Of a DNA stretch of 64,000 bases, positions 1 to 14,291 are shown piece after piece (position 1 is the stretch's first letter; the number at the start of each line of letters is the position of its first letter). The notes under the pieces were generated by a model. It did not search any database and was not told the origin of the DNA. It saw nothing but the letters and a program-made list of their open reading frames with translations. Both the position numbers and the translations under genes were made by a program. This DNA comes from Thioalkalivibrio sp. ALJ21 (GTDB taxonomy: Bacteria > Pseudomonadota > Gammaproteobacteria > Ectothiorhodospirales > Ectothiorhodospiraceae): NCBI RefSeq assembly GCF_000378605.1, contig NZ_KB905155.1, positions 558,001 to 622,000 of the forward strand, written 5' to 3'.

Positions 1-248
1 AGCGTGCGCAGGGCGGGCTCGCTGATGTCGGCGAAGTGCGTGCCGGCGATGGGCAGCCGTGGGCGCATGCCGGGCCCGACTTCAAGGCGTTCGCAGCCGT
101 CGCGGTTCAGCCGGCAGACCAGCGGCCAGGTATTGAACTGATCGGGCGACACCAGTTGCGAATCTTTCCACAAGTCATTGTAGAAACGGCGATTGGTGTC
201 GAGCAGCCGATCGTGATCGGCGGTATGCGGGGAGGCAGAATCAGACAA
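1..248 (-). CDS. SAM-dependent methyltransferase-like protein, N-terminal fragment (cut by window start)
   Basis: The minus strand is open from a TTG at 246-248 to the window edge, giving about 82 residues of an N-terminus. The segment RLEVGPGMRPRLPIAGTHF looks like motif I (the glycine-rich SAM-binding loop) of class I methyltransferases, in a variant seen in hypothetical methyltransferases. No ATG lies upstream in frame, so TTG is the best available start, and no clear ribosome site is seen. It lies about 105 bases after the GGDEF-EAL gene on the same strand and could be cotranscribed with it. The substrate cannot be guessed, and the rest of the gene is outside the window. Confidence 0.6.
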   Translation of the reverse strand, partial: MSDSASPHTADHDRLLDTNRRFYNDLWKDSQLVSPDQFNTWPLVCRLNRDGCERLEVGPGMRPRLPIAGTHFADISEPALRT

Positions 249-352
249 GCGGAATTCCGGGGCGCGAATATGTGAAGAGTATAGGGGTTCTGTCTGGCGC
301 CATGGCGGTTCCCCGGGGGCGCATGTGGGAAGCTGTGAACGGGTCCGGGTTT

Positions 353-2230
353 CTAAAGACGCTTGTGCAGCAGCGGGGTGAGGGCATCCGCCGGCATGGC
401 GCGACCAAAGTAATAGCCCTGGCAATAGGTGCATCCCATTGCGGCCAGCATGCTCGCCGCTTCCGGGTGCTCGATGCCCTCGGCGGTCACTTGCAAATCC
501 AGCGCCTGGGCGAGACCAATGATCGAGCGAACAAGATTGGTGTAGTACGGGTCCTGGCCGAGTGGCTGAACGAAGCTCTTGTCGATTTTGAGCGTGTCGA
601 GGCGTAACCACTGCAGGTAGCCGAGCGCCGAGTAGCCGGTACCGAAATCGTCGAGCGCGATATGTACCCCGCGCTCGCTGATGGCCGCGATTCGGTTGCG
701 GATGCTGGAGTCGCCCTCCAGATACACATTTTCGGTGACCTCCAGGCAGACGCAGTCGGCGGGCAAGGCCGTGTTGGCCAGGGCTTGGTCCAGTACGGTC
801 AGAAAGTGGTCGCGCTTGAGCTGTACCGGCGAAACGTTCACCGAGATGCGCTCAAACTGGTGTCCCGCCGCGCGCCAGTCTGCGGCCTGCTGCATCGCGG
901 TATGCAACACCTGGTCGCCGACTTCCAGCATGAGGCCGAGTTCTTCCAGTATGGGTACGAATTGATCCGGCCCGGGTGCCCCGGGACGCTGCCAGCGCAG
1001 CAGGGCCTCGGCCCCGATGATGCGCCCGCCGGGCAGGGCCACGATCGGCTGAAACCAGGGGATTAGTTCGCCGTTGCCCACGGCAGCGCGGACTTCCTGC
1101 TCCAGCTCACGCCGCCGCGCGCTGCGCTCGGCCAGTGCGGGGTCGAACACCGTCAGGCGGGCCCCACCCTCTGTCTTGGAACGCTGCAGGGCGGTTTCCG
1201 CACAGCGGGTCAGGGCCTCGGCGTTGGGGGCATCCCCGGGAAACACCGCAACACCCGCGCTCAGTCGGGGCTCGAATTCATCGGCTACGTGCATGGAGTA
1301 TCGGTGATGCAAGGCCTTCAATACGCGCTGGCAAAGCCCCTCGACATCCTCGGAGGAGTCGATCCCGTCGAATACCACGACAAACTCGTCACCGCCGATG
1401 CGAGCCGCCGTATCGGTCTCGCGGATGACGCCCTGCAGGCCTTGCGCGAGTGTGATCAGGAGCTGATCGCCGGCCTGCTTCCCGACCATGTCGTTGATGT
1501 CGCGAAAGCGGTCGATGTTGAGTGCCAGAACCGCTACGCACTGATCGGCTCGTCGCGCGCGACGCAGGGCGAACTCAAGGCGGTCGAAGAACAGGGCGCG
1601 GTTACCCAGCCCGGTCAGGCTGTCGAAGTAGGCCATGTGTTCGATCACGCGGCGATCGTGTTCCCGCTTGTACACATGGCCGAGCGCCTGGGCGATCCCC
1701 TCGATGACCTCGCGGCTAAGGTCCGGGTCGATATCCGGGGTGTCGGCGAATGCCTCGATCAGCCCATAGCAATGACCATGGACATAAATGCTGCAGATGC
1801 AGCAGCGTTCCGGGCGGTTGGGGTGTTGGCTGGCGAGCCCAAGTTGGCTCTCGATGCCGCAGGCAGACTCCAGCAGGACACGACCGGCCGGCGTGGGCTC
1901 GACCTCGTCATCCGGTGCCGGCAGGTTCAGGTCGGCGATTCGGCGTAGCTGACCCGCCGGGTCGCGGTAAAGGGCGTGAGCGCGCCGCCAGACGGTGTGG
2001 GCAGCGAGCTGTTGCAGGCCCTGGGTAGTGGTGTCCTCCAGGCTGTCGCTGGCATTGGCTAGTCGAGTGACTTCCAGGATCGTCTCGAGCTTGACCTGTT
2101 CCCGATACAGACGCCGGGTTGCGTCTTCGGCGATTCGCTCGGCTTCCTGGCGAGCTTGGCGTTCGCGTTCCAGGCGGCGGTCGCGCAGTGCTGGCGCCTT
2201 GGCACGATCCTGGTGGTAGGAGTCAGCCAA
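353..2230 (-). CDS. GGDEF-EAL bifunctional cyclic-di-GMP enzyme linked to H-NOX
   Basis: A 625-residue soluble protein, counted from a TTG at 2228-2230 that overlaps the H-NOX stop codon. Order of parts: a charged coiled-coil helix (about 10-50), a GAF-like region (about 55-185) with a cysteine cluster (CCICS), a GGDEF domain (about 204-370) and an EAL domain (about 375-615). The GGDEF motif is intact at 279-283, preceded five residues earlier by RETD, the RxxD inhibitory site. The EAL side keeps EALLRW, DDFGTGYS, KIDKSFV and TAEGIE, so both synthesis and hydrolysis of cyclic-di-GMP look possible. An ATG at 2315-2317 is also in frame, but it would read 29 serine/threonine-rich residues out of H-NOX coding sequence, so I prefer the TTG. 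The coupling suggests that H-NOX controls this enzyme. Confidence 0.9.
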   Translation of the reverse strand: MADSYHQDRAKAPALRDRRLERERQARQEAERIAEDATRRLYREQVKLETILEVTRLANASDSLEDTTTQGLQQLAAHTVWRRAHALYRDPAGQLRRIADLNLPAPDDEVEPTPAGRVLLESACGIESQLGLASQHPNRPERCCICSIYVHGHCYGLIEAFADTPDIDPDLSREVIEGIAQALGHVYKREHDRRVIEHMAYFDSLTGLGNRALFFDRLEFALRRARRADQCVAVLALNIDRFRDINDMVGKQAGDQLLITLAQGLQGVIRETDTAARIGGDEFVVVFDGIDSSEDVEGLCQRVLKALHHRYSMHVADEFEPRLSAGVAVFPGDAPNAEALTRCAETALQRSKTEGGARLTVFDPALAERSARRRELEQEVRAAVGNGELIPWFQPIVALPGGRIIGAEALLRWQRPGAPGPDQFVPILEELGLMLEVGDQVLHTAMQQAADWRAAGHQFERISVNVSPVQLKRDHFLTVLDQALANTALPADCVCLEVTENVYLEGDSSIRNRIAAISERGVHIALDDFGTGYSALGYLQWLRLDTLKIDKSFVQPLGQDPYYTNLVRSIIGLAQALDLQVTAEGIEHPEAASMLAAMGCTYCQGYYFGRAMPADALTPLLHKRL

Positions 2231-2771
2231 CGTTTGGCTCGACGTGGATCTGGAAATGGCAACGGCCGTCGCCTCGATGCTGGCACTCCGGGTGCTCGAC
2301 GTGGACGGTCTGCCCATAGCGGTCCCCCGTGCCCAGCATCAACCCGTGCGCCAGCGAGCAAAGCCCCCGTTCCGAGCGGTAGTCCATCGCCAGCTCTTGC
2401 GGCCCTGTCCGCGTGCAGTCAAAAACGGGAACCCGAGCGCCCGGATAGAGTTTCACGACTTCCGGATGGATCACATCGTTCAGGGCCTGAAGCAGCCCGA
2501 TCGAGTCGGGGTAGTGATCGAAGACGCCCGGATAGGCCTGCTCGAAACGCGGAAGCATCTCGCGTCCGATCCATTGCAGACAGTCGGCGGTATTGAGGCC
2601 CGTGACCTCGCAGGCGGCGCCGACCAGTCGCATCATCTCGTCGTCCTCGTAGTTTCCGAGCGAGGTATAGGCGCCGCTAACCTGCGCCCGGTCCAGGAGA
2701 TCCTCCCAGCCTTCCTCGCCATAGTGCTCCGTCACGATCTCTTCAAGGACGTTGAATACGATGCCTTTCAT
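2223..2771 (-). CDS. H-NOX heme nitric-oxide-binding sensor protein
   Basis: A 182-residue stand-alone H-NOX (HNOB) domain, the usual length for bacterial sensors. The proximal heme ligand is His102 (VIHPEV), and the YxSxR heme-propionate motif is YRSER at 131-135. Cys138, Cys163, His165 and Cys171 (ECQHRGDGRC) resemble the C-terminal zinc/redox site described in some proteobacterial H-NOX proteins. In this family, bacterial H-NOX binds NO at ferrous heme and changes the activity of a partner histidine kinase or diguanylate cyclase/phosphodiesterase. Here the next gene is a GGDEF-EAL enzyme starting inside the H-NOX stop region, and the gene before is a PleD-like regulator. NO-to-cyclic-di-GMP control is therefore a strong inference, although no binding data exist. 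Confidence 0.93.
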   Translation of the reverse strand: MKGIVFNVLEEIVTEHYGEEGWEDLLDRAQVSGAYTSLGNYEDDEMMRLVGAACEVTGLNTADCLQWIGREMLPRFEQAYPGVFDHYPDSIGLLQALNDVIHPEVVKLYPGARVPVFDCTRTGPQELAMDYRSERGLCSLAHGLMLGTGDRYGQTVHVEHPECQHRGDGRCHFQIHVEPNVG

Positions 2772-2852
2772 TCCACTGTTCCCGTTCGCGTGTCCGTCCC
2801 GCGACCCTAAACGATTGAACCAGCGGAAGACAGAGTGGGCGACGGTGGCCGC

Positions 2853-4163
2853 TCAGCCGTAGTGTTCCGCTGCGGGGTTGTGATGTTTTCCGGGGAGGGA
2901 GACGACGCAGTTCCGGCCCTGGGCCTTGGCGTTGTAGACGGCCTCGTCGGCTGCACGGAACAGGTCATTGAGTTCGGCATTGCTGCCGGGCTCTCGGCTG
3001 GTGACACCAAAGGATGCGGTGAGCGGCAGGCCCGCCGGGCGCAGATCCTGGACCCGCTGGCGCAGGTCCTCGGCACGGGTATGGGCATCGAACAGGTCGC
3101 TGCCTGGCATCAGCATCAGCAACTCCTCGCCGCCGAAGCGGACGGGGACCTCGCCGGGCGCGGCAACCGCGCGCAGCAGTTCGCCAATGGCCGCGAGGAC
3201 CTCGTCGCCGACCAGGTGGCCGTGACGGTCATTGATGTCCTTGAAGTGGTCGAGGTCCATCAGGATCAGGGCCAGCGGTTGTTCGTGGCTGCAGGGTTCA
3301 TCGAAGAATCGGCTGGCGAACTCCGTCAAGGCATTGCGATTGCTCAGACCGGTTAGTGGATCAACCATCGCCATCTCGTAGTGCTTCTGGCGCTGGAGGC
3401 GGACCTCTTCCATCAGGCGTTTGTTGTTCAGCAGGTTGTACAGGCGCGCCCGAAGTTCATCCCCCTGGAAAGGTTTGGTAACGAAGTCATTGACACCGAG
3501 TCGAAAAATTTCTGCCCGTCGATGCTGGTCATCCAGGCCCGACATGGCGACGATTGGCATCTCGGTCATGTCCGGGCATTGCTGCCGGATGCAACCCACA
3601 AGCCCCATTCCACTCAGCTCTCCCTCAACCAGGATGTCGCTCAGGACCAGGTCAAACTGCGAGGGGTCGAAGGCCGCGAGGGCTTCGGAGGCACTGGTGT
3701 AGTGCACGATATCGAGGCCCATAGGCTCCAGGGCGCGGCGCAGGTAGCGTGCGGCAGTGGGGCTGTCCTCCACATACAGAATCCGTCCACTGAGGAGGCT
3801 CTCCAGCGGCTGCGCGTAGCGTTCGGCCTGCTGGAACAGTTCCCCAATGTTGGTTCGGTCATGGACATCGGTCGCGCCCGCGGCGAAGGCGCGTTCGCGA
3901 ATGCGCATATCAGGGTTGGACGTAAGGATGATCAGCGGAAGCCCGCGGCCGTAACGCCTCTTGCGCGCCGCGCGGCAGAATTCCAGGCCATCCATGTCGG
4001 GCAGACTTAGCGAAACGCAGGCCAGCTCTGCGCGGAAGATGTCCAGACGTGCGAGCCCCTCGGCGCCGGTGCCGGCCATGCTGGCTTCATGCCCGGCGGT
4101 GCCCACCATGCGGCTCCAAAGGGCGCGGAACACGCGCGAGCGATCGACGACCAGGATCCTCAT
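2853..4163 (-). CDS. PleD-like response regulator: two receiver domains plus GGDEF-type domain
   Basis: A 436-residue protein with REC (1-118), REC (126-245) and a GGDEF-family domain (about 262-430). REC1 looks dead: the aspartate that normally precedes LPDMDG is Ser51, and the acidic pair and the conserved lysine are also lost. REC2 keeps Asp176 (LVLSD) and Lys230 (VTKPF), so it should be phosphorylated. The active-site motif is GGEEL (344-348) instead of GGEEF, and there is no RxxD inhibitory site five residues before it. This resembles Caulobacter PleD, where the first receiver serves as a dimerisation adaptor. It is the first gene of a minus-strand trio, 81 bases before H-NOX. No histidine kinase is in the window. 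Confidence 0.9.
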   Translation of the reverse strand: MRILVVDRSRVFRALWSRMVGTAGHEASMAGTGAEGLARLDIFRAELACVSLSLPDMDGLEFCRAARKRRYGRGLPLIILTSNPDMRIRERAFAAGATDVHDRTNIGELFQQAERYAQPLESLLSGRILYVEDSPTAARYLRRALEPMGLDIVHYTSASEALAAFDPSQFDLVLSDILVEGELSGMGLVGCIRQQCPDMTEMPIVAMSGLDDQHRRAEIFRLGVNDFVTKPFQGDELRARLYNLLNNKRLMEEVRLQRQKHYEMAMVDPLTGLSNRNALTEFASRFFDEPCSHEQPLALILMDLDHFKDINDRHGHLVGDEVLAAIGELLRAVAAPGEVPVRFGGEELLMLMPGSDLFDAHTRAEDLRQRVQDLRPAGLPLTASFGVTSREPGSNAELNDLFRAADEAVYNAKAQGRNCVVSLPGKHHNPAAEHYG

Positions 4164-4379
4164 GATCCCGGCCCCTGTTGGCGATCCGGCCGTGGCCCCC
4201 TGTGCCCGCGCATGTCCTTGCTCCCATTCCGTCCAGAAACCGCAGCGTCCGTGCTGCCGCTCCGTATAGTGCGCGCTGCCAGCGTTTGCAACAACTGCGG
4301 CACTTCGGCTGTGGTGTCAGGGCATGAATGGCGTGTGGGTCGCCTGACTGCGTAAGCGAACCCACGGTACAGTTCCCTC

Positions 4380-5909
4380 ATGAAAGGAGACGACGCTGGC
4401 CAGACACCGGGAGCGCGCGAGTATCGCCAATTGGATGCCTGCGCCTGTGCGGCGGCCGTGCGTGACGGGGAGGTCGCGCCCGAGTCTCTGCTGCGGTGCG
4501 CGCTGGAGCGCCTGGATGCGGTGAACCCCGTGCTCAATGCGGTTTGCATCGATGCCCGTCCGCGTGCCAAGGCGAGAATCGACGAGGGCGTTAAGGGACC
4601 ATTCGCCGGGGTCCCGTACCTGGTCAAGGACCTCCTGCAGGACGTTCAGGGGCTCCCCTCGACCCTGGGCAGTCGGTCCTGCCGTCAGGTGATTGCGTCG
4701 GCCAGTGCTGACACGGTCCACCGGGCCGAAGATGCAGGGTTGGTGATTCTGGGCAAGACCGCGACGCCGGAATTCGGGCTCAAGGGGGTTACGGAGTCCG
4801 CGCTCTGGGGGCCGACGCGAAACCCGTGGGATATCGATCGCTCGCCCGGTGGTTCCAGCGGTGGGGCGGCGGCAGCCGTGGCGGCCGGGATCGTGCCCAT
4901 GGCGGGTGCCAACGACGGGGCCGGGTCGATTCGCATACCGGCCTCGTACTGCGGCCTGTTCGGACTGAAGCCTTCGCGCGGTCGGGTGCCGGTGACGCCG
5001 CTGGCGGGCGAGGCCTGGGAAGGCGCGGTGAGCGAAGGGGTGCTTTCGCGCAGTGTGCGCGACAGTGCTCGAATGCTTGATGTCCTGTCCTCGGGGCGGA
5101 GTGCTTCCGCGCCCTTTCGGGTGGAGCCACCTCCGGCAAGCTTCGAGGAACTCGCCCGACGCGAGCCGGGACGCCTGCGGATCGGCTGGAACGTCGATTC
5201 GCCCGTGGACGGACGGGTCGACCGCGACTGTGTGGAGGCGGTGGAGCGGGCCACCGGTTTACTGGAAGCCCAAGGGCACGTCATTGAGCGTGTGACCAAC
5301 TGGCCGGTGGACGGCCGGCATGTGGCGCGGTCTGTACTGGCGTTGTTGTACGGGCAGGTAGCGGCATTCGTGGCGCGTGCGCGCGAACGGGGTGCGCGCT
5401 GGGACGACTTCGAGCTGGATACACGCACACTGGCGCGGCTGGGGCGGGCGTTGACCGCGGGGGAATACGCCCGCGCCCGGCAGGGCTGGAATCGCGTGAG
5501 TCTGGCGCTGGCGACGCTGTTCGAGCGCTATGACGTCCTGCTGCTGCCGACCGTGGCGATGCCGCCCCCGCGGATCGGCGAGCTGGAGCCAGCCCCCCTG
5601 GTCCGCGCCCTGCAACGGCTTGCCCTGTACCTGCCGGTGGGCCGCTGGATGCTGAACAGCCGCTTTCTGGAGCGGATGACGTTCGAGAACCTGGAGCGCA
5701 CCCCGTTTACCCTGGCCGCCAATCTGGCCGGGATCCCGGGGATGTCGGTACCGCTGCACTGGGATCATGCCGGGCTGCCTGTGGGCGTGCAGTTCATGGC
5801 GCCCTGGGGCGAGGAGGGACGGCTGCTGTCGCTGGCGACACAACTGGAGGCCGCGCAGCCCTGGTTCCACCGGGTGCCGCCAGACCTGCCGGACACTCGC
5901 CAGGGCTGA
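4380..5909 (+). CDS. Amidase signature family hydrolase
   Basis: A 509-residue soluble amidase of the usual family length. It hydrolyses C-N amide bonds with a Ser-cisSer-Lys triad. Visible pieces are the lysine in YLVKDLL (about residue 83), the glycine/serine loop SPGGSSGG with the cis-serine (about 158), and GAGSIRIPASYCGLFGLKP carrying the nucleophile serine. The last block, AGIPGMSVPLHW with LPVGVQFMAP, is typical of AS-family enzymes. The Asp/Glu-tRNA amidotransferase partners gatB and gatC are absent, so this is probably a free-standing amidase rather than GatA. The substrate is unknown. The ATG at 4380 has no good ribosome site; an AAAGGAG lies just inside the gene, so the start is uncertain. 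It is divergent from the response regulator gene. Confidence 0.85.
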   Translation: MKGDDAGQTPGAREYRQLDACACAAAVRDGEVAPESLLRCALERLDAVNPVLNAVCIDARPRAKARIDEGVKGPFAGVPYLVKDLLQDVQGLPSTLGSRSCRQVIASASADTVHRAEDAGLVILGKTATPEFGLKGVTESALWGPTRNPWDIDRSPGGSSGGAAAAVAAGIVPMAGANDGAGSIRIPASYCGLFGLKPSRGRVPVTPLAGEAWEGAVSEGVLSRSVRDSARMLDVLSSGRSASAPFRVEPPPASFEELARREPGRLRIGWNVDSPVDGRVDRDCVEAVERATGLLEAQGHVIERVTNWPVDGRHVARSVLALLYGQVAAFVARARERGARWDDFELDTRTLARLGRALTAGEYARARQGWNRVSLALATLFERYDVLLLPTVAMPPPRIGELEPAPLVRALQRLALYLPVGRWMLNSRFLERMTFENLERTPFTLAANLAGIPGMSVPLHWDHAGLPVGVQFMAPWGEEGRLLSLATQLEAAQPWFHRVPPDLPDTRQG

Positions 5910-5935
5910 AGGAAACGTCCTGGCCCCGTTTGCGG

Positions 5936-7018
<1,083 letters not shown>

Positions 7019-7942
7019 TTACGGGTCGATACGCGTCTCGCTGGCGCCGCCGTGCTCGATCCAGCCATGGATCATGCGTGGGGTCGTCGTGCCGGCCGCA
7101 CAGTGGCCCTCGCGGTCGATCACGATCGCACCGCCGTAGCCATCCAGTCGCTCGTGCAGCCGCCGCAGGCTCGCGTTGAGGGCTTCAGAGGCGCCGAGGC
7201 CGAGCAGCTCGATACGGTCGGCCAGGTCCTTGGCGAAGACACTGCGCAGGAAATGCTCGCCGAGGCCGGTGGCGGAGATGGCGGCGGTGTGATCGTCGGC
7301 GTAGACGCCCGCCCCCGCGATTGGCGAGTCCCCGATGCGACCGGGCCGCTGGCCATTCATGCCGCCGGTGGAGGTTGCCGCGGCCAGGTGGCCGTGCTGA
7401 TCGCGGGCGACCGCACCGATGGTCCCGGGGGCGGGCTCGTCATGGTCAAGCGTGACCATGCCACGCCGGAGCGTCCGTTCCAGTTGCTCCCGCCGCTGCG
7501 CCGTAATCAGTCGGCGTTCGTCGATCAGAGGCCGCCCGGCCTGCCGGGCAAAGCTTGCGGCACCCTCCGCAACCAGCAGCACATGCGCGCCATCCTCCAG
7601 GATCGCGCGGGCCAGTCGAATGGGGTTGGCGATGCCGCGAACCGCGCCCACGGCCCCCACACCGAGGGTTTCACCGTCCATTATCGCGGCGTCCAGTTCG
7701 ACCGTGCCCTCGCGCGTCAGCGCGGCTCCGGTACCGGCGTTGAACAGCGGGTCGTCCTCAAGCAGCGCCGCGCAGTGTTCCACGGTATCGAGTGCGCGCT
7801 CGCCGCGGGCCAGTTGCTCGCGGCCGGCTTCCAGTACCCGCAGTATCGCGACGTGGTACTGCTCGGCAACCAGCGAGTCCTGCGCCTCGCGGATGCGCCC
7901 GGCCCCGCCATGGATCATCAGCGAGAAGGACTTCGAGGCCAT
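7019..7942 (-). CDS. Isoaspartyl peptidase / plant-type L-asparaginase
   Basis: A 307-residue Ntn-hydrolase precursor. The protein is made as one chain and cuts itself before the catalytic threonine, here Thr174 in APGTIGAVARD. N-terminal HGGAG and the later blocks GRIGDSPIAGAGVYAD and SATGLGEHF match the IaaA/plant-type asparaginase family, which hydrolyses beta-aspartyl dipeptides and, weakly, asparagine. Its ATG overlaps the stop codon of the BNR gene by one base (TGATG), so translation is probably coupled. No signal peptide is seen, so it should be cytoplasmic, unlike its exported partner upstream. A role in repairing or recycling isoaspartyl peptides is the family expectation. Confidence 0.9.
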   Translation of the reverse strand: MASKSFSLMIHGGAGRIREAQDSLVAEQYHVAILRVLEAGREQLARGERALDTVEHCAALLEDDPLFNAGTGAALTREGTVELDAAIMDGETLGVGAVGAVRGIANPIRLARAILEDGAHVLLVAEGAASFARQAGRPLIDERRLITAQRREQLERTLRRGMVTLDHDEPAPGTIGAVARDQHGHLAAATSTGGMNGQRPGRIGDSPIAGAGVYADDHTAAISATGLGEHFLRSVFAKDLADRIELLGLGASEALNASLRRLHERLDGYGGAIVIDREGHCAAGTTTPRMIHGWIEHGGASETRIDP

Positions 7943-9309
7943 CAGCGGTCCTGAGCCTGTCCGCGGATCAACAGGATGTCGCTGTGGCTGCCCGGGACAA
8001 AGCGGCTCTGGGCAATCGCGATCTCGCCAGCCGCGTTGGCGGCCATCCGCCGTTTCAGCTGCCCCTGAAGCCCACCGCTGTAGGGTTGGTCGACGGTCCC
8101 GGGGACGGGCTCGACAGGCGCGAACGCCAGGGTGTCCAGTGGAGCGAGGCTAAACGCGAGGCCGTACGGGCGATCAGTCGGGTGTGGATAGCGCTGCCAG
8201 ACGAGATAGAGCCGGTCGGCGGAGCTCGACAGCGTGGGGAAGCCGCCCGGCCAGTCGTCCGCGTCGAGTTCGTTCGCCGGGCTGAACTCAAGGGTGTCCG
8301 CATCGGCCTGGGTGATGTGCATTCGACGGTGGTAGGGCTGGCGGTAGTCCTCCAGGTCGTTCGCCGGGATGGCCCCGAACGCCAGATGCACGGTGCCTTC
8401 GTCATCCACTACCAGCGAAGGGGCGTCGGCGTGACCGGGCGTTTCAAGCGCCGTCGCGGGTGCGGAAAAGCCTTCGCCCAGTTCACCCGAGGTCGCGATG
8501 CGGATATCGGCATACGGGCTGTCGCCCTCCGACCAGGCGAGCAGGATCCGCCCCGAGGGAGCCCGGGCCAGACTCGGTGCGCGGGCCGGTTTGTCGGCCC
8601 CATCGTTGATCGTTTCGGGTTCCGCGAAGCTTTCGCCGTTGTCGGACGAGTAGGTGACGCGCAGTGGACCCCGATATTCGGTCCAGGCCGCGACGACTTG
8701 TCCATTCCCGGCCAGGAGCAGGTCCAGGCTGCCATTGTCCCAGCGATGGGCTGTGATGCGTCCCTTGCCAGCCCCGTCGCGCGAGTTGGACAGGTTCTGG
8801 TGATCCTCGAACGATCGGCCGCCGTCCCGGGAGCGGGCATAGAGGATCTCCCCGCCGTGGTCGCCTCCGGTAAACAGGATCTCCTGCCAGAGCAGGTGAA
8901 CGGTGAAGTCGTCCTCGTCATCCGGTGCCGGCTCGATCGCGACGCGCGGGAGCCAGGAGAAGGTGTCCGGTTGCCCGCCGATACGGGTGGGTTCATCCAG
9001 GACGGCCTGACCGTCGCGGTCGTAGCGTTGCAGCAGGATCGCCTGCTCCACCTGGTCAACCCAGACGACGACCACTTCTCCGTGGTCGTTGATCGCCACC
9101 GAGGCGTCGTCCACATAGCGAAAGTCGGAGGCATTCATGCGCCAGGGGCCTCGGTAGGCCTCGCCGCGGGCGACTTCGACGGGATCCTGCCAGACAACCT
9201 GGCTCTGGGCTTCCTCGTCCGCCAGGATCGGTGTGGGCGCAAACGCGAGAGCAAGCCCGGCGACGAGGCCAATGGCTGGCCATGCGTGTGCGTATGTGGT
9301 TCGAGGCAT
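7942..9309 (-). CDS. Secreted BNR/sialidase-fold repeat protein
   Basis: A 455-residue exported protein. The start at 9309 is chosen because an AGGAGGT ribosome site sits just before it and it begins a clear signal peptide (about 1-31, ending PTPILA). The longer open frame upstream has no such support. The mature part holds repeated Asp-box motifs, SRDGGRSF and SSDNGESF, and related sheets such as DGQAVLDEP, typical of six-bladed beta-propellers of the sialidase/BNR superfamily. I do not see the arginine triad of a true sialidase, so enzymatic activity is uncertain; binding or a structural role is possible. It lies between the rhomboid protease gene (70 bases upstream) and the asparaginase gene. 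Confidence 0.8.
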   Translation of the reverse strand: MPRTTYAHAWPAIGLVAGLALAFAPTPILADEEAQSQVVWQDPVEVARGEAYRGPWRMNASDFRYVDDASVAINDHGEVVVVWVDQVEQAILLQRYDRDGQAVLDEPTRIGGQPDTFSWLPRVAIEPAPDDEDDFTVHLLWQEILFTGGDHGGEILYARSRDGGRSFEDHQNLSNSRDGAGKGRITAHRWDNGSLDLLLAGNGQVVAAWTEYRGPLRVTYSSDNGESFAEPETINDGADKPARAPSLARAPSGRILLAWSEGDSPYADIRIATSGELGEGFSAPATALETPGHADAPSLVVDDEGTVHLAFGAIPANDLEDYRQPYHRRMHITQADADTLEFSPANELDADDWPGGFPTLSSSADRLYLVWQRYPHPTDRPYGLAFSLAPLDTLAFAPVEPVPGTVDQPYSGGLQGQLKRRMAANAAGEIAIAQSRFVPGSHSDILLIRGQAQDR

Positions 9310-9379
9310 GCGACCTCCTGTGGCGAAATCCGGGCAACTGCGCTTTATGGGACCACCGGGGGCCCGGAAGGATTCACGT

Positions 9380-9997
9380 CTATCCCCCAAGCGGCGACAG
9401 GAGCTCCTGCACGAAACGGCCGAGCAGGGCCGGTTCCAGCAGGAGCATGAAGCCCACGCCCCAGGCACCACCCCACAGGTGAGCACTGTGATTCACGTTG
9501 TCCCGTGCCTGCCGTTGCGCCCAGAACGAATAGGCCACGTAGGCGGCCGCGAACACGATCGCCGGCATCGGGATAAAGAACACGAACAGCATCGACCAGG
9601 GCTGTAGCAGGATATAGGCGAACAGGACGGCCGACACTGCGCCCGAGGCTCCCAGGCTGCGGTAGAAGCGGTTGTCCCGGTGACGCAGATGCGTGGGCAG
9701 GATCGCCAGCACGATGCCAGCCAGATAGAACGCCACAAAGCCGAGTACGCCGATCTCCGGGACCAGCACGCGCTCCATGGTCATCCCGAAGAAGAACAGC
9801 GTGATCATGTTGAACGCGAGGTGGGTGCCATCCGCGTGGATGAACCCGTGGGTGATCAGCCGCCAGTATTCGCCCCGGGCCACCGCCGGTGGCCAGTAGA
9901 TCATCCGCTCCATCACGCGTGGGCGCTGCCAGGCCCACACGGAGGTGGCCACCGTGCCTGCGATTATGAACAGCGTGATGTAAAAGTCCTGTTCCAT
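9380..9997 (-). CDS. Rhomboid family intramembrane serine protease
   Basis: A 205-residue membrane protein with about six hydrophobic segments. Catalytic features of rhomboid proteases are intact: the nucleophile Ser118 in LGASGAVSA, the partner His173 in NHSAHLWGG, and the HADGTHLAFNM segment of helix 2 with an oxyanion-hole asparagine (Asn63). The enzyme cleaves substrate helices inside the inner membrane. It is upstream of the secreted BNR protein on the same strand with a 70-base gap. The BNR protein has a signal peptide but no obvious membrane anchor after it, so it is not a clear substrate. Confidence 0.92.
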   Translation of the reverse strand: MEQDFYITLFIIAGTVATSVWAWQRPRVMERMIYWPPAVARGEYWRLITHGFIHADGTHLAFNMITLFFFGMTMERVLVPEIGVLGFVAFYLAGIVLAILPTHLRHRDNRFYRSLGASGAVSAVLFAYILLQPWSMLFVFFIPMPAIVFAAAYVAYSFWAQRQARDNVNHSAHLWGGAWGVGFMLLLEPALLGRFVQELLSPLGG

Positions 9998-10052
9998 TGA
10001 TGACCCACCGCTCCCAAGGGGCCGATTTTTCTGATGGGTTTGGCCCCAGGTA

Positions 10053-10081
10053 TTGAAAAGCTCGCTCGACTTCCTAGGTAT
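10053..10081 (+). promoter_or_regulatory. Possible heat-shock (sigma-32 type) promoter of hsp20
   Basis: TTGAAA at 10053-10058 is followed 14 bases later by CCTAGGTAT. The -35 half matches the sigma-32 consensus CTTGAAA well; the -10 half matches CCCCATNT poorly. It is about 60 bases before the Hsp20 start, where a promoter would be expected. A sigma-70 reading is also possible. Confidence 0.3.
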
Positions 10082-10138
10082 CGGTGTAGGAGCCCTGAAC
10101 GCAAGTGTTCACGACACACGACACGAGGAGGTGACGGC

Positions 10139-10669
10139 ATGGACCTGCAAAAGCTCAAGCCGTGGAACTGGTTCAAGCGCGAGGAACAGGAACAGCCCGA
10201 GGTCCTGCCCGCGCGGAGCGATGACGCCACGGGCGACCCGCTGCTGCGGATGCACCAGGAGATGGACCGGATGTTCGAGCAGTTCTTCGGTCGTGCCCCG
10301 GGCGGTGCCCTCGCGAGGCGTACCGGTCCATTGTGGTTGAAGCCCAGCGTGGACATCGCCGAAGGACGCAAGGCCTACCGGATCTCGGTGGAGGTGCCCG
10401 GGATCGCGGAGGAGGAGATCGACCTTTCGATCGATGGCGACGACCTGATCGTCTCCGGCGAGAAGCGCCAGGAACACGAAGAGGACGAGGAGGGCTACCA
10501 TCGAATCGAGCGAAGTTACGGGCGGTTTCGCCGGGTCCTGAGCCTGCCCGGCGACGCCGACGCGGACGGCATATCCGCGCGTTTCAGGAACGGGGTGCTG
10601 GATATCCACGTGCCCCGCCGCAAGGATGGCGAGCGCCCCGGGCTGCGGCGCATCGAGATTGGCCGTTAG
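10139..10669 (+). CDS. Hsp20 / alpha-crystallin small heat shock protein
   Basis: A 176-residue ATP-independent holdase chaperone. The ATG at 10139 has a strong GAGGAGGTGA ribosome site; a longer frame from 10034 is not supported. The N-terminal arm (1-65) carries MHQEMDRMFEQFFG, the usual amphipathic start. The alpha-crystallin domain (about 70-165) includes PSVDIAEGRKAYRISVEVPG, the GEKRQEHEEDEEGYHRIER loop and the C-terminal strand GVLDIHVPR. The canonical IxI tail is present only loosely as RRIEIGR. It should bind unfolding proteins as oligomers in the cytoplasm. The next gene starts 97 bases downstream on the same strand. Confidence 0.93.
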   Translation: MDLQKLKPWNWFKREEQEQPEVLPARSDDATGDPLLRMHQEMDRMFEQFFGRAPGGALARRTGPLWLKPSVDIAEGRKAYRISVEVPGIAEEEIDLSIDGDDLIVSGEKRQEHEEDEEGYHRIERSYGRFRRVLSLPGDADADGISARFRNGVLDIHVPRRKDGERPGLRRIEIGR

Positions 10670-10766
10670 GCCAAGGAAAGCTAGCCAACGGGGAGCCGAA
10701 CGGCACATGCGCAACGGCCCGGCGCAGTCTAGGCTGAAGAAAGGGTAGGCGGCAGGGAGGCCATGG

Positions 10767-11792
10767 ATGACGCGTCGTATCGTGATCTGCGCGGACGGGA
10801 CCTGGAACCGTCCGGAGGAGGACGTCGAGTCCGACGTCCCGACCAACGTATTGCGCCTGGCGCGGGCGGTGGCGCCCGTGGATGCTGCCGGCGATACCCA
10901 GCAGGTGTTCTATGACTGGGGTGTGGGGTCGTACCACGCCCGGGTCAGTGGCGGAGTAACCGGGCGGGGCATCCACAAAAACATCACCGATGCCTATCGC
11001 TACATCGTGCAGAACTACGCCTCCGGCACGGAGCTCTTCCTGTTCGGGTTCAGCCGGGGCGCGTACACCGTGCGCAGCCTGTGCGGCCTGATCAACAACT
11101 GCGGGGTTCTCCGGCGCCCGGATGCACGCCTGATCGAAGAGGCCTTTCGCCTGTACAAGCGCACAGGGGCGGCTTACAAGCCCGAGGGCAAGCACTCGCG
11201 CGCCTTTCGCGAGACCCACAGCCATCCCTCTCGGACGATCCGTTTCGTGGGTGTCTGGGATACCGTCGGGGCACTGGGCATCCCGTTTTCGGTGCTCGGG
11301 CTGTTCGACCGCACCGACGAGTTCTACGACACCAAGCTCGGCCCGAATGTCCGGATCGCCCGGCATGCACTGGCCATCGACGAGCGCCGCGCGGACTTCG
11401 AACCTACCCTGTGGGAGCCGCGCGAAGGGCTGGATCTGGACCAGCAGTGGTTCGCCGGGGTGCACGCGGATATCGGGGGCGGCTATCCACCCGATGCCCG
11501 GGGGCTGCGGGTCGCCGATATTGCCCTGGACTGGATGCTGGAGCAGGCATCCATCGGAGGACTGGAGTTCGAGCCGCACCTCCCGGCCAGCCTGCGCCCC
11601 GACGCTCGCGCCGCGATCCACCAGTCGCGGCGTCACATCTATCGCTTGCGCCGTACACTGGTCCGGGATCTCGACCAGGGGGATTCCCCGACGCGGCTGC
11701 ACTCGTCGGTCGAAGAACGCTACCGGCAGTCGCGCGACTACCGTCCTCCAAACCTCAAGGCCTATCTCGACAAGCGATCCCGCGACAGGTGA
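10767..11792 (+). CDS. DUF2235 alpha/beta-hydrolase (Tle1-like phospholipase family)
   Basis: A 341-residue protein of the DUF2235 family, to which T6SS phospholipase effectors of the Tle1 type also belong. The family start RRIVICADGTWN is clear. The nucleophile elbow is GFSRG with Ser96, and plausible triad partners are Asp165 (VGVWDTVGALG) and His233 (GVHADIGGGY). A GGGAGG ribosome site precedes the ATG at 10767. No type VI genes, immunity gene or signal peptide are nearby, so a secreted toxin is not supported. A housekeeping lipase or esterase near Hsp20 is as likely. The true substrate is unknown. Confidence 0.85.
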   Translation: MTRRIVICADGTWNRPEEDVESDVPTNVLRLARAVAPVDAAGDTQQVFYDWGVGSYHARVSGGVTGRGIHKNITDAYRYIVQNYASGTELFLFGFSRGAYTVRSLCGLINNCGVLRRPDARLIEEAFRLYKRTGAAYKPEGKHSRAFRETHSHPSRTIRFVGVWDTVGALGIPFSVLGLFDRTDEFYDTKLGPNVRIARHALAIDERRADFEPTLWEPREGLDLDQQWFAGVHADIGGGYPPDARGLRVADIALDWMLEQASIGGLEFEPHLPASLRPDARAAIHQSRRHIYRLRRTLVRDLDQGDSPTRLHSSVEERYRQSRDYRPPNLKAYLDKRSRDR

Positions 11793-11918
11793 CCTCACTG
11801 GCGCCGGGTCGTGTCATCATGAATGCACCGGCACGGGGGCGTTTGGAGGTATAACCGCCGCTTTGGCGGGGGTGCCGGACTCGGGACGAAAGGGTAGCAA
11901 GGACTCCGGGGAGGGGGC

Positions 11919-14291
11919 ATGGCGAGGTCGCGTGACGCGAGCCAGGAACGCTGGATCGATCGGTTTCGTGTGCTGGAGACATTGGGGGAGAGTGCGCGCG
12001 ACGGCCTGTATGTCGCGCATGACGGCGTACTGGACCGGCGCGTGATGGTACGTACGCTGACGCACCAGGCCCTGGGCGATGCCGAGGCGCGTGATGACCT
12101 GATGCGCGCGGCCCGCGCGGTGAGCCGTTTCCGGCATCCCCACAGCGCGGCGATCTTCGAAGCGGGGCCCTGGGACGAGGGTCTCTATCTCGTATGCGAA
12201 TACATCGAGGGCGAAACGCTGGATGCCCTGCTCGCCGGGGGACGGCTGCCGCTGGACCGCGCCCTGGCGCTGATGCGCGAGATTGTCGATGCCCTGGCGG
12301 CTGCGCACGAGCAGGGGATTGTCCATGGGTCGCTGCAGCCTGCGAACATCACGGTTGGCGCGGACGGTCATGCGCGAGTCACCGGTCTGGGTCTCGCGTT
12401 GCCTGAGGGTAGCGAACAGGCCGCGGGGCATCAGACACAGACGCGCCATTACCTGGCCCGGGAGCAGCTGTGTGGAGGGCCGCCGACAGTGGCAGCGGAC
12501 GTGTTCTCGCTGGGCGCGCTGTTCTATGAACTGCTGGCGGGACGGCGGGCCTTTTCCGGGGACGCCGACCGGGATGTGCCGGGTGAGATGGAAGCCGGTG
12601 TCCCCGAACCGCCGTCGAAGCACACAGGCGAGGGCGACGAACGCCTGGATGCCATCGCCCTGAGGGCACTGCGGCCCGATCCGCACGAGCGTTACACATC
12701 GGCCCAGGCGCTGCGCGAGGCGTTTCTCGCCGTGACCGAGGGTCGCGAGACCGAGGCGGGGGATCCGGGCGATTTCATCCTTCGCCGGATTCGGCGCAAG
12801 CCGGATTTCCCGGGGATCTCGGCCCATATCCGCGAGATTACGCAGTGCTCGGGCGACAGCCAGCAGCGCTCGGTCGCCGAGCTGTCGAATGCCGTGCTGA
12901 AGGACTACGCGACGACCCAGAAGCTTCTGCGGCTGGCCAATTCCCCTTTCTACAGCAACTTTGGCGGCAACATCCGCACGGTGTCTCGGGCGGTCGTCCT
13001 GCTGGGGTTCGAGCAGGTGCGCACGGCGGCGCTAGGCCTCGTCCTGCTGGAAAACCTCAAGGGAGGGAGCCAGTCCGCTCGCCTGATGCAGGCGATGGTG
13101 CAAACGCTGTTCAGCGCGATGCTGGCACGCACGCTGGCCCGGCAGCTCGGCGGGGTCGAAAGCGAACAGGCGTTTGTCTGTGCGTTGTTCCACGACATCG
13201 GTCGCATGCTGGCGCTCTACTACCTTCCCGAGGAGGCCGACGAGATTCAGATCCGGCAGACGCAGGGCGTTTCCGAGGGCAGTGCGGCACGCCAGGTGCT
13301 TGGGCTCTCGTACGAGGCACTGGCGCGTGCCGTGCTGGAGGACTGGAACTTCCCGCGCGAGATCGTTCAGGCGGTCGAACGGGCGCCCGAGGGCACGCTG
13401 CCGGCCGTACGCGACCCGGACCAGCGTCTACATCGGATCGTAACTCTGGCCAGCGAGATGGCGGGTCGCATTATCCACCAGGACCCGGCGGAGCAGGATC
13501 TCGCCCTGGCCGAACTGCGGCGACGCTACAAGGCGTCGCTGGATGTCGAAGCCACGGGGATGCACCGGGCCATCCAGGACGGGCGCGAGCATCTCGAGCA
13601 GTTTCTGAGCGTGGTCAAGCTGCCGCGCGAGGGGCAGGAACATCTGCGGCAACTGCGGCGGAATCTGGGGGTTGGCGAGACCGCGCAGGGTGGCGATGTT
13701 CCGGACGAGGAGGCCCTGCTGGATGCCAATGGTGGCCTGGCGGCCGACGCCCCGGGCTCCGGGGCGGCGTCACCGGCCGAGCAGGCGGCGGCGCTGATGG
13801 AGTCGCTGACGGACATGCTCGATGCGATGGTCGAGGGGTTCGAGCTGAACCCGCTGGTCCAGGCGACGCTGGAGAATATCTACCAGGTGCTCGGATTGCG
13901 CCGCGCGATGCTGATGCTGGCGGATCGGGAACGCCGCACGCTGGTGGCCCATACCGCGTTCGGGCATGAGGCGGAATCCCTGTCCGGGCGCCTTCGCCTG
14001 TCGCTGAGCGGCTCCGGCAATGTCCTCTCGCTGGCCATGACACAGCGCAAGGACATGGTGATCAGCGACAGTTCGGACCCGGCGATCAGCCGCTACATTC
14101 CGGGGGAGTTCCGTGATGCGCTGGATGCGCGCAGTTTTCTCTTGCTGCCTCTGGGTGTGCGTGAGCGCTGTGTGGGGCTGCTGTACCTGGAGTTGGCGCC
14201 GGGCAGTACGGAGCTGGACCCGCTGGTGCTGCGCGCTCTGAAATCGGTTCGGAATCAGTTGGCCCTGGCGATCTGCGAGGCGCGGTCCTGA
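11919..14291 (+). CDS. Pseudokinase-HDOD-GAF regulatory protein
   Basis: A 790-residue multidomain protein. Residues 12-272 have the fold of a Ser/Thr kinase but lack its chemistry. The VAIK lysine is Arg45, the HRD loop reads HGSLQPAN with Ser138 for the catalytic aspartate, the DFG motif reads GLG (156-158), and the glycine loop is poor. Residues about 290-500 form an HDOD domain with the HD-like segment ALFHDIGRML. A linker of about 100 residues leads to a GAF domain (about 630-785). HDOD proteins typically serve as signalling scaffolds. A strong GGGGAGGGGG ribosome site precedes the ATG. It probably relays a small-molecule signal sensed by GAF; the output is unknown. Confidence 0.88.
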   Translation: MARSRDASQERWIDRFRVLETLGESARDGLYVAHDGVLDRRVMVRTLTHQALGDAEARDDLMRAARAVSRFRHPHSAAIFEAGPWDEGLYLVCEYIEGETLDALLAGGRLPLDRALALMREIVDALAAAHEQGIVHGSLQPANITVGADGHARVTGLGLALPEGSEQAAGHQTQTRHYLAREQLCGGPPTVAADVFSLGALFYELLAGRRAFSGDADRDVPGEMEAGVPEPPSKHTGEGDERLDAIALRALRPDPHERYTSAQALREAFLAVTEGRETEAGDPGDFILRRIRRKPDFPGISAHIREITQCSGDSQQRSVAELSNAVLKDYATTQKLLRLANSPFYSNFGGNIRTVSRAVVLLGFEQVRTAALGLVLLENLKGGSQSARLMQAMVQTLFSAMLARTLARQLGGVESEQAFVCALFHDIGRMLALYYLPEEADEIQIRQTQGVSEGSAARQVLGLSYEALARAVLEDWNFPREIVQAVERAPEGTLPAVRDPDQRLHRIVTLASEMAGRIIHQDPAEQDLALAELRRRYKASLDVEATGMHRAIQDGREHLEQFLSVVKLPREGQEHLRQLRRNLGVGETAQGGDVPDEEALLDANGGLAADAPGSGAASPAEQAAALMESLTDMLDAMVEGFELNPLVQATLENIYQVLGLRRAMLMLADRERRTLVAHTAFGHEAESLSGRLRLSLSGSGNVLSLAMTQRKDMVISDSSDPAISRYIPGEFRDALDARSFLLLPLGVRERCVGLLYLELAPGSTELDPLVLRALKSVRNQLALAICEARS

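Follow-up and report, generated by a model that had tools for sequence, protein, structure and literature searches.

A shared N-terminal helix on H-NOX partners: a predicted docking module seen from an H-NOX/GGDEF-EAL pair of Thioalkalivibrio

The gammaproteobacterium Thioalkalivibrio sp. ALJ21 encodes a single H-NOX gas sensor in a genome of 2.96 Mb, as judged by a genome search, and its gene overlaps that of a GGDEF-EAL protein, a predicted enzyme of cyclic di-GMP (c-di-GMP) metabolism, on the minus strand of the 64,000-nucleotide (nt) stretch analysed here (the window; contig NZ_KB905155.1, positions 558,001 to 622,000). A short helix near the N-terminus of the GGDEF-EAL protein recurs, in other genomes, on otherwise different proteins whose genes directly follow H-NOX. 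We give a slightly better than even chance to the idea that this helix represents an unnamed, dedicated H-NOX docking and coupling module, which would wire a nitric oxide (NO)/redox sensor to varied outputs across phyla and form a counterpart of HNOBA. For the locus as a whole, we favour with moderate confidence an explanation in which H-NOX acts as the sensor and the GGDEF-EAL protein as the effector of one pair, H-NOX docking on the effector helix, next to a response regulator that is predicted to be a separate diguanylate cyclase and happens to share the locus.

A helix shared by H-NOX partners

The predicted coupling helix of the GGDEF-EAL protein comprises residues 14-59 (positions 2054-2191; minus strand, as are all window features below) and lies within a segment that AlphaFold models as helical from residue 4 to residue 60. 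Among 17 H-NOX loci fetched from genome contigs, 16 carry such a helix near the start of the gene that follows H-NOX, with the sequence RRLxRERxARxEAExIAExxxRxLY or a variant of it (approximately RExxARxxAExxxExxxxxLY); the remaining locus (L024), whose H-NOX match covers only 112 residues, was left unassigned. The proteins that bear the helix differ in their outputs, which include GGDEF-EAL, HisKA and HisKA_3 kinases and a 195-residue protein with a sub-threshold match to STAS, and hybrid kinases stand beside H-NOX in two genomes (G006 and G063). The loci are labelled as Gammaproteobacteria, Alphaproteobacteria, Actinobacteria, Polyangiaceae and, for one metagenome-assembled genome, Thermoplasmatales, with the proviso that labels of such assemblies may be wrong.

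An alignment of 20 helix segments (A1) contains seven invariant residues. Several codons are used at these residues, so that conservation acts on the protein; a nucleotide-level signal behind the helix was ruled out on the same ground. The best Pfam match of any of the 20 segments has an E-value of 0.0029 and scores 18 bits, short of the cut-off of 25, and the helix matched none of the solved protein chains at E ≤ 1. In the best of the seven possible heptad registers, 65% of the residues at positions a and d are hydrophobic, compared with 24% elsewhere, and the invariant E10 and R14 (A1 numbering; residues 23 and 27 of the protein) fall on a/d positions. An invariant Glu and Arg at such positions suggest to us that the coil can switch and is not static.

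Linkage of the helix to H-NOX

The 16 helix loci also supplied rows of A1, and the independent test is therefore a census of the phylum. Genomes were searched with A1 at E ≤ 1e-4 in two overlapping samples, 398 genomes for the phylum and 229 for the class. The phylum sample contains 50 helix places in 47 genomes, and 35 of these places follow a same-strand H-NOX match at a distance of 77-169 nt. At higher stringency, a position right after H-NOX is seen for 23 of 24 places (E ≤ 1e-8) and for 14 of 14 (E ≤ 1e-10). An H-NOX is present in 46 of the 47 helix genomes but in only 103 of all 398 (hypergeometric probability 4e-30, a value to be read in the light of the genomes being related and not independent), and even among the 15 non-adjacent places, 14 belong to a genome that has one. 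None of the 29 census loci compared with A1 (L091-L119, which cover 27 of the adjacent places) has more than 25 of 36 residues in common with any row of the alignment. The sole exception at E ≤ 1e-8, in genome G311, has an upstream frame of 82 residues (L108, 1668-1916) that by eye looks like an H-NOX remnant or tail, and at this position its congener G614 (L094) possesses a complete H-NOX. The class census yielded 14 helix places in 11 genomes and 15 H-NOX places in 14 genomes; eight of the 14 helix places are in the gene after H-NOX, three of the eight in genomes that had supplied A1 rows.

Viewed from the side of the sensor, the phylum sample holds 116 H-NOX places, which include 63 stand-alone frames (141-343 residues) and 49 longer ones. 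All 33 stand-alone frames with an adjacent helix rank within the top 42 of the 63 by score, and in the remaining two cases of adjacency the H-NOX frame ahead of the helix is cut or split (G376 and G545). Natural fusions were not found, as the helix follows none of the 49 long-frame H-NOX matches. Frames were also inspected at ten loci whose H-NOX has no helix match beside it, and four of the next genes were scanned: three (L081, L120 and L121) carry HNOBA, and the fourth (L085) encodes a kinase with no HNOBA match, in which a degenerate helix can be discerned by eye.

Several observations weigh against a dedicated docking role. Helix places that are not beside H-NOX make up 15 of 50 in the phylum and six of 14 in the class sample, two genomes of which (G116 and G245) have a helix match without any H-NOX. 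Conversely, the helix is next door to only 33 of the 63 stand-alone H-NOX frames of the phylum, and seven of the 15 H-NOX places of the class sample lack it. The helix of G074 sits in the middle of its protein, and the 82-residue frame of G311 has no Pfam match. Among 30 genomes of the genus, 12 contain a weaker helix match away from H-NOX, eight of them without any H-NOX at all. Finally, adjacency might stem from the common ancestry of a single gene pair instead of from docking. One of the genus helix proteins away from H-NOX, encoded in the ALJ21 genome (L066, 1435-3108, contig C2), is a GAF-GGDEF-EAL protein, and six others begin alike; FIST/NosP, which might be expected beside helix proteins without H-NOX, was not seen by eye in a subset of these loci, and no FIST profile search was made.

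The similar segments in proteins away from H-NOX would suit a different reading, in which the helix is a generic dimerising coiled coil akin to the signalling helix, inherited together with H-NOX partners, and H-NOX binds elsewhere. The predicted helicity and heptad pattern fit this view, and passages of PMC1592074 describe a signalling helix that also has about 40 residues and polar residues at core positions. However, a generic coil would leave unexplained the strong linkage to H-NOX at low E-values despite otherwise unrelated outputs. Moreover, the ERT signature that marks the central heptad of the signalling helix does not seem to be conserved: a search for the letters alone found them in only two of the 20 A1 rows (L011 and L012), at differing positions. 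We thus regard the generic coil as a less probable, if serious, contender and retain the predicted docking module as the preferred reading.

The effector and its sensor

The effector is a helix-GAF-GGDEF-EAL protein of 625 residues (353-2230), predicted to be a c-di-GMP phosphodiesterase under the control of H-NOX. Pfam recognises both its EAL (E 6.7e-66) and its GGDEF domain (E 4.2e-39). Within the EAL domain (401-1099), residues E408, N465, E500, D527, D528, K548, E584, E587 and Q604, to which we ascribe catalytic or metal-binding roles, are invariant in all seven aligned proteins, and the residue set of an active EAL domain is complete. In the GGDEF domain (1163-1633), the first Asp of the DxD motif ahead of F[KR]xxND, presumably a metal ligand and required of an active diguanylate cyclase, is replaced by Asn in all three aligned orthologues, those of the window genome (G000), ALJ3 (G004) and ALJ7 (G024); it is kept in two other H-NOX-linked GGDEF-EAL proteins of the same alignment (L013 and L022). 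The GH of the GHxxGD motif reads GK in the window and ALJ3 proteins and GT in that of ALJ7, and the related protein of G614, from another genus, has GSDEF. A first-pass annotation of the window had described the enzyme as intact, a description contradicted by the lost metal Asp, although the GGDEF motif, an RETD I-site and the EAL residues are indeed present. Given that the GGDEF metal Asp is lost and the EAL residues are kept, mainly phosphodiesterase activity is to be expected, and the enzyme is more likely a phosphodiesterase or biased towards this activity.

The retained GGDEF motif and I-site would also be compatible with a bifunctional enzyme that turns from cyclase to phosphodiesterase in response to NO, and there is a precedent for such an arrangement, since SwH-NOX of Shewanella woodyi controls a GGDEF-EAL partner, SwDGC, according to passages of PMC8846402. 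The Asn in three of three aligned orthologues and the altered GH dipeptide speak against this possibility for the window protein. We therefore consider it unlikely and prefer a phosphodiesterase-biased effector.

Between the helix and the GGDEF domain lies a diverged GAF domain (residues 61-190; 1661-2050). Pfam makes no call here in the window protein; the assignment comes from the AlphaFold model (predicted local distance difference test score 86.8), a best Foldseek match to 4g3v (E 2.3e-6) and GAF_2 calls at the matching position in homologues. The domain contains a cysteine cluster, CCICSIYVHGHC (1769-1804), whose pattern CCIC-x6-C is kept in all three aligned Thioalkalivibrio orthologues and could bind a metal or an iron-sulfur cluster. 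Among the loci compared, a narrow form of the pattern matched only those four that hold the H-NOX/GGDEF-EAL pair (G000, G029, G004 and G024). In G029, which otherwise has the same three genes as the window, the GGDEF-EAL gene contains an in-frame stop at residue 135 (L027, 7539-9416).

The H-NOX protein (182 residues; 2223-2771) matches PF07700 (HNOB) with an E-value of 8.5e-43 and 146.5 bits, well above the cut-off of 25.5, and is 68% identical to its ALJ7 counterpart. It had been credited with all heme motifs, and its alignment with solved H-NOX proteins bears this out: H102, which we take to be the proximal His, P115 and the Y131-x-S133-x-R135 motif, presumably all involved in heme binding, are in register. 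The same alignment places C138, H160, C163 and C171 at what we assume to be a zinc/redox site with three Cys and one His. A zinc site of this type is described for H-NOX in passages of PMC7108781 and PMC12329717.

Locus layout and the neighbouring regulator

Three minus-strand genes, for a REC-REC-GGDEF regulator, H-NOX and the GGDEF-EAL protein, span positions 353-4163, and the coordinates agree with the first-pass description of a PleD-like regulator, an H-NOX in the middle and a GGDEF-EAL enzyme on one strand. The GGDEF-EAL gene starts with a TTG at 2230, inside the H-NOX stop region as had been stated; the overlap of 8 nt (2223-2230) is exactly TTGGCTGA and is kept in all four Thioalkalivibrio loci that hold the pair. 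These adjacent, co-oriented and overlapping genes probably encode a translationally coupled sensor-effector pair. The coupling proposed for them is well supported by the kept overlap, by the precedents in PMC8846402 and by the enrichment of the partner helix beside H-NOX. In G006, the frames of H-NOX and a hybrid kinase likewise overlap by 8 nt (L029, 7542-7549), so this arrangement is not peculiar to GGDEF-EAL partners. Rfam gave no match in window positions 1-12000, and no tRNA was found in the whole window.

The third gene, separated from H-NOX by 81 nt, encodes the 436-residue response regulator (2853-4163), a neighbour that is probably not an obligate part of the system. Its best solved relative is PleD (2wb4, E 5.7e-46 over REC2-GGDEF), and it scores 194.4 bits with the PleD equivalog model NF007135, below the cut-off of 474. 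The earlier label of a dual-receiver regulator holds for the number of REC domains, but only the second looks phosphorylatable. The alignment to PleD stops short of REC1 (3798-4163), whose Ser at the phospho-Asp position is read, by eye, from an alignment of eight relatives with Ser in seven and Ala in one, unlike the phosphorylatable REC1 of the PleD type. REC2 (3441-3782) keeps the Asp, Ser and Lys residues, and the GGDEF domain (2910-3371; GGEEL) has an intact DxD motif and APGE in place of the RxxD inhibition site. The genome contains a second REC-REC-GGDEF protein of the same family with 58% identity (L050, 4924-6441, contig C4), near genes that appear pilin-like by eye.

The regulator and the pair differ in their distribution. 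Among the 30 genus genomes, a search at E ≤ 1e-40 matched the regulator in 14, near full-length in 13 (63-100% identity for the best match per genome) and partially in G006. H-NOX occurs in five of the 30, with a hybrid kinase as its partner in G006. Of the 13 regulator genomes, four have an H-NOX and nine do not, one of the latter (G018) being only 66% complete. Regulator and H-NOX adjoin in three genomes (G000, G029 and G004) and lie on different contigs in ALJ7; in G025 and G020, the downstream gene is the same, but the pair that would separate it from the regulator is missing. The pair thus comes and goes in the genus where the regulator stays. In an unrooted tree of the flanks, G020 groups with G004, and G025, which like G020 lacks the pair, stands next to G000/G029, a topology compatible with either gain or loss of the pair. 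Between G000 and G004, the pair is 82.0% and the flanks are 82.9% identical. By eye, the last codons of the regulator (window 2853-2900; L045 and L046) are more alike in G000, G029 and G004 than in G025 and G020, as if the pair and the end of the regulator gene had been exchanged as one block.

These data bear on the possibility of a true three-gene module, in which a phosphorylated REC-REC-GGDEF cyclase and an NO-controlled GGDEF-EAL enzyme would share a local c-di-GMP pool. The shared strand and the 81-nt gap, in which a simple consensus scan of the minus strand found no promoter-like or terminator-like site, make cotranscription of the regulator with the pair possible, and the triad persists in three genomes despite about 83% flank identity to G004; the similar regulator ends of the three pair genomes point in the same direction. 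Nevertheless, a conserved three-gene set was rejected, with nine of 13 regulator genomes lacking H-NOX and the pair missing from G025 and G020 and located elsewhere in G024. In addition, REC1 lacks the Asp, the enzyme gene of G029 is interrupted, and no histidine kinase is encoded among the three genes. The first-pass proposal of a module joining NO and a phosphorelay is weakened accordingly, and comparing gene order in related genomes, as it had advised, places the regulator beside H-NOX in only three of the 13. We judge the three-gene module improbable and favour the sensor-effector pair with a separate regulator.

A possible mechanism

In the mechanism that we propose on the basis of sequence and predicted structure, the effector would dimerise via its N-terminal helix (residues about 4-60), on which H-NOX would dock. 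Binding of NO to the heme, or oxidation of the zinc-site cysteines, may then alter the packing of the helix, a change that the GAF domain could relay to the EAL domain and that would probably increase the hydrolysis of c-di-GMP. The GGDEF domain would be mainly regulatory, as a weak or inactive cyclase. More generally, stand-alone H-NOX proteins may use the helix as a plug to control outputs that are unrelated to each other (kinases, GGDEF-EAL proteins and a STAS-like protein), as an alternative to HNOBA.

If this is true, mutagenesis could be aimed directly at the shared partner-side helix, H-NOX clients would become predictable from their sequences, and the helix could be transplanted as a tag for NO control. 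The H-NOX/kinase interface has reportedly been mapped by exchange in Rao 2017 and Guo 2018, and a shared helix may be described there. The new point, a testable common helix on varied H-NOX partners, was not found described in the titles, abstract openings and passages of the open literature searched, including the text of PMC6759604. Passages of PMC7108781 report, from exchange experiments, that H-NOX meets its kinases through its helices A-C and F, and a 2022 review states that no high-resolution structure of H-NOX with a partner exists (PMC8738867).

Comparison with known systems

The operon is an ordinary member of the known H-NOX/GGDEF-EAL class, and its neighbouring regulator is independent of the pair. 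It resembles SwH-NOX/SwDGC in combining H-NOX with a GGDEF-EAL partner; compared with SwDGC as described in passages of PMC8846402, the enzyme studied here has Asn at the GGDEF metal position, is probably phosphodiesterase-biased and has a REC-REC-GGDEF gene upstream. With the H-NOX/HnoK systems of Shewanella, Vibrio and Caulobacter, it shares a partner gene beside hnox and the zinc-site cysteines, and the reading frames of Caulobacter H-NOX and HnoK overlap as they do here, whereas the output is a GGDEF-EAL protein rather than a kinase (HnoK compared by its description in passages of PMC12329717 and PMC7108781). Like the helix, HNOBA (PF07701) sits at the N-terminus of proteins whose genes neighbour that of H-NOX, but it is a different domain and occurs at the three loci (L081, L120 and L121) in which the helix was not found. 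The regulator, finally, shares the REC-REC-GGDEF architecture of PleD and differs from it in a REC1 without the phospho-Asp, next to a REC2 that keeps it, and in the absence of the RxxD inhibition site.

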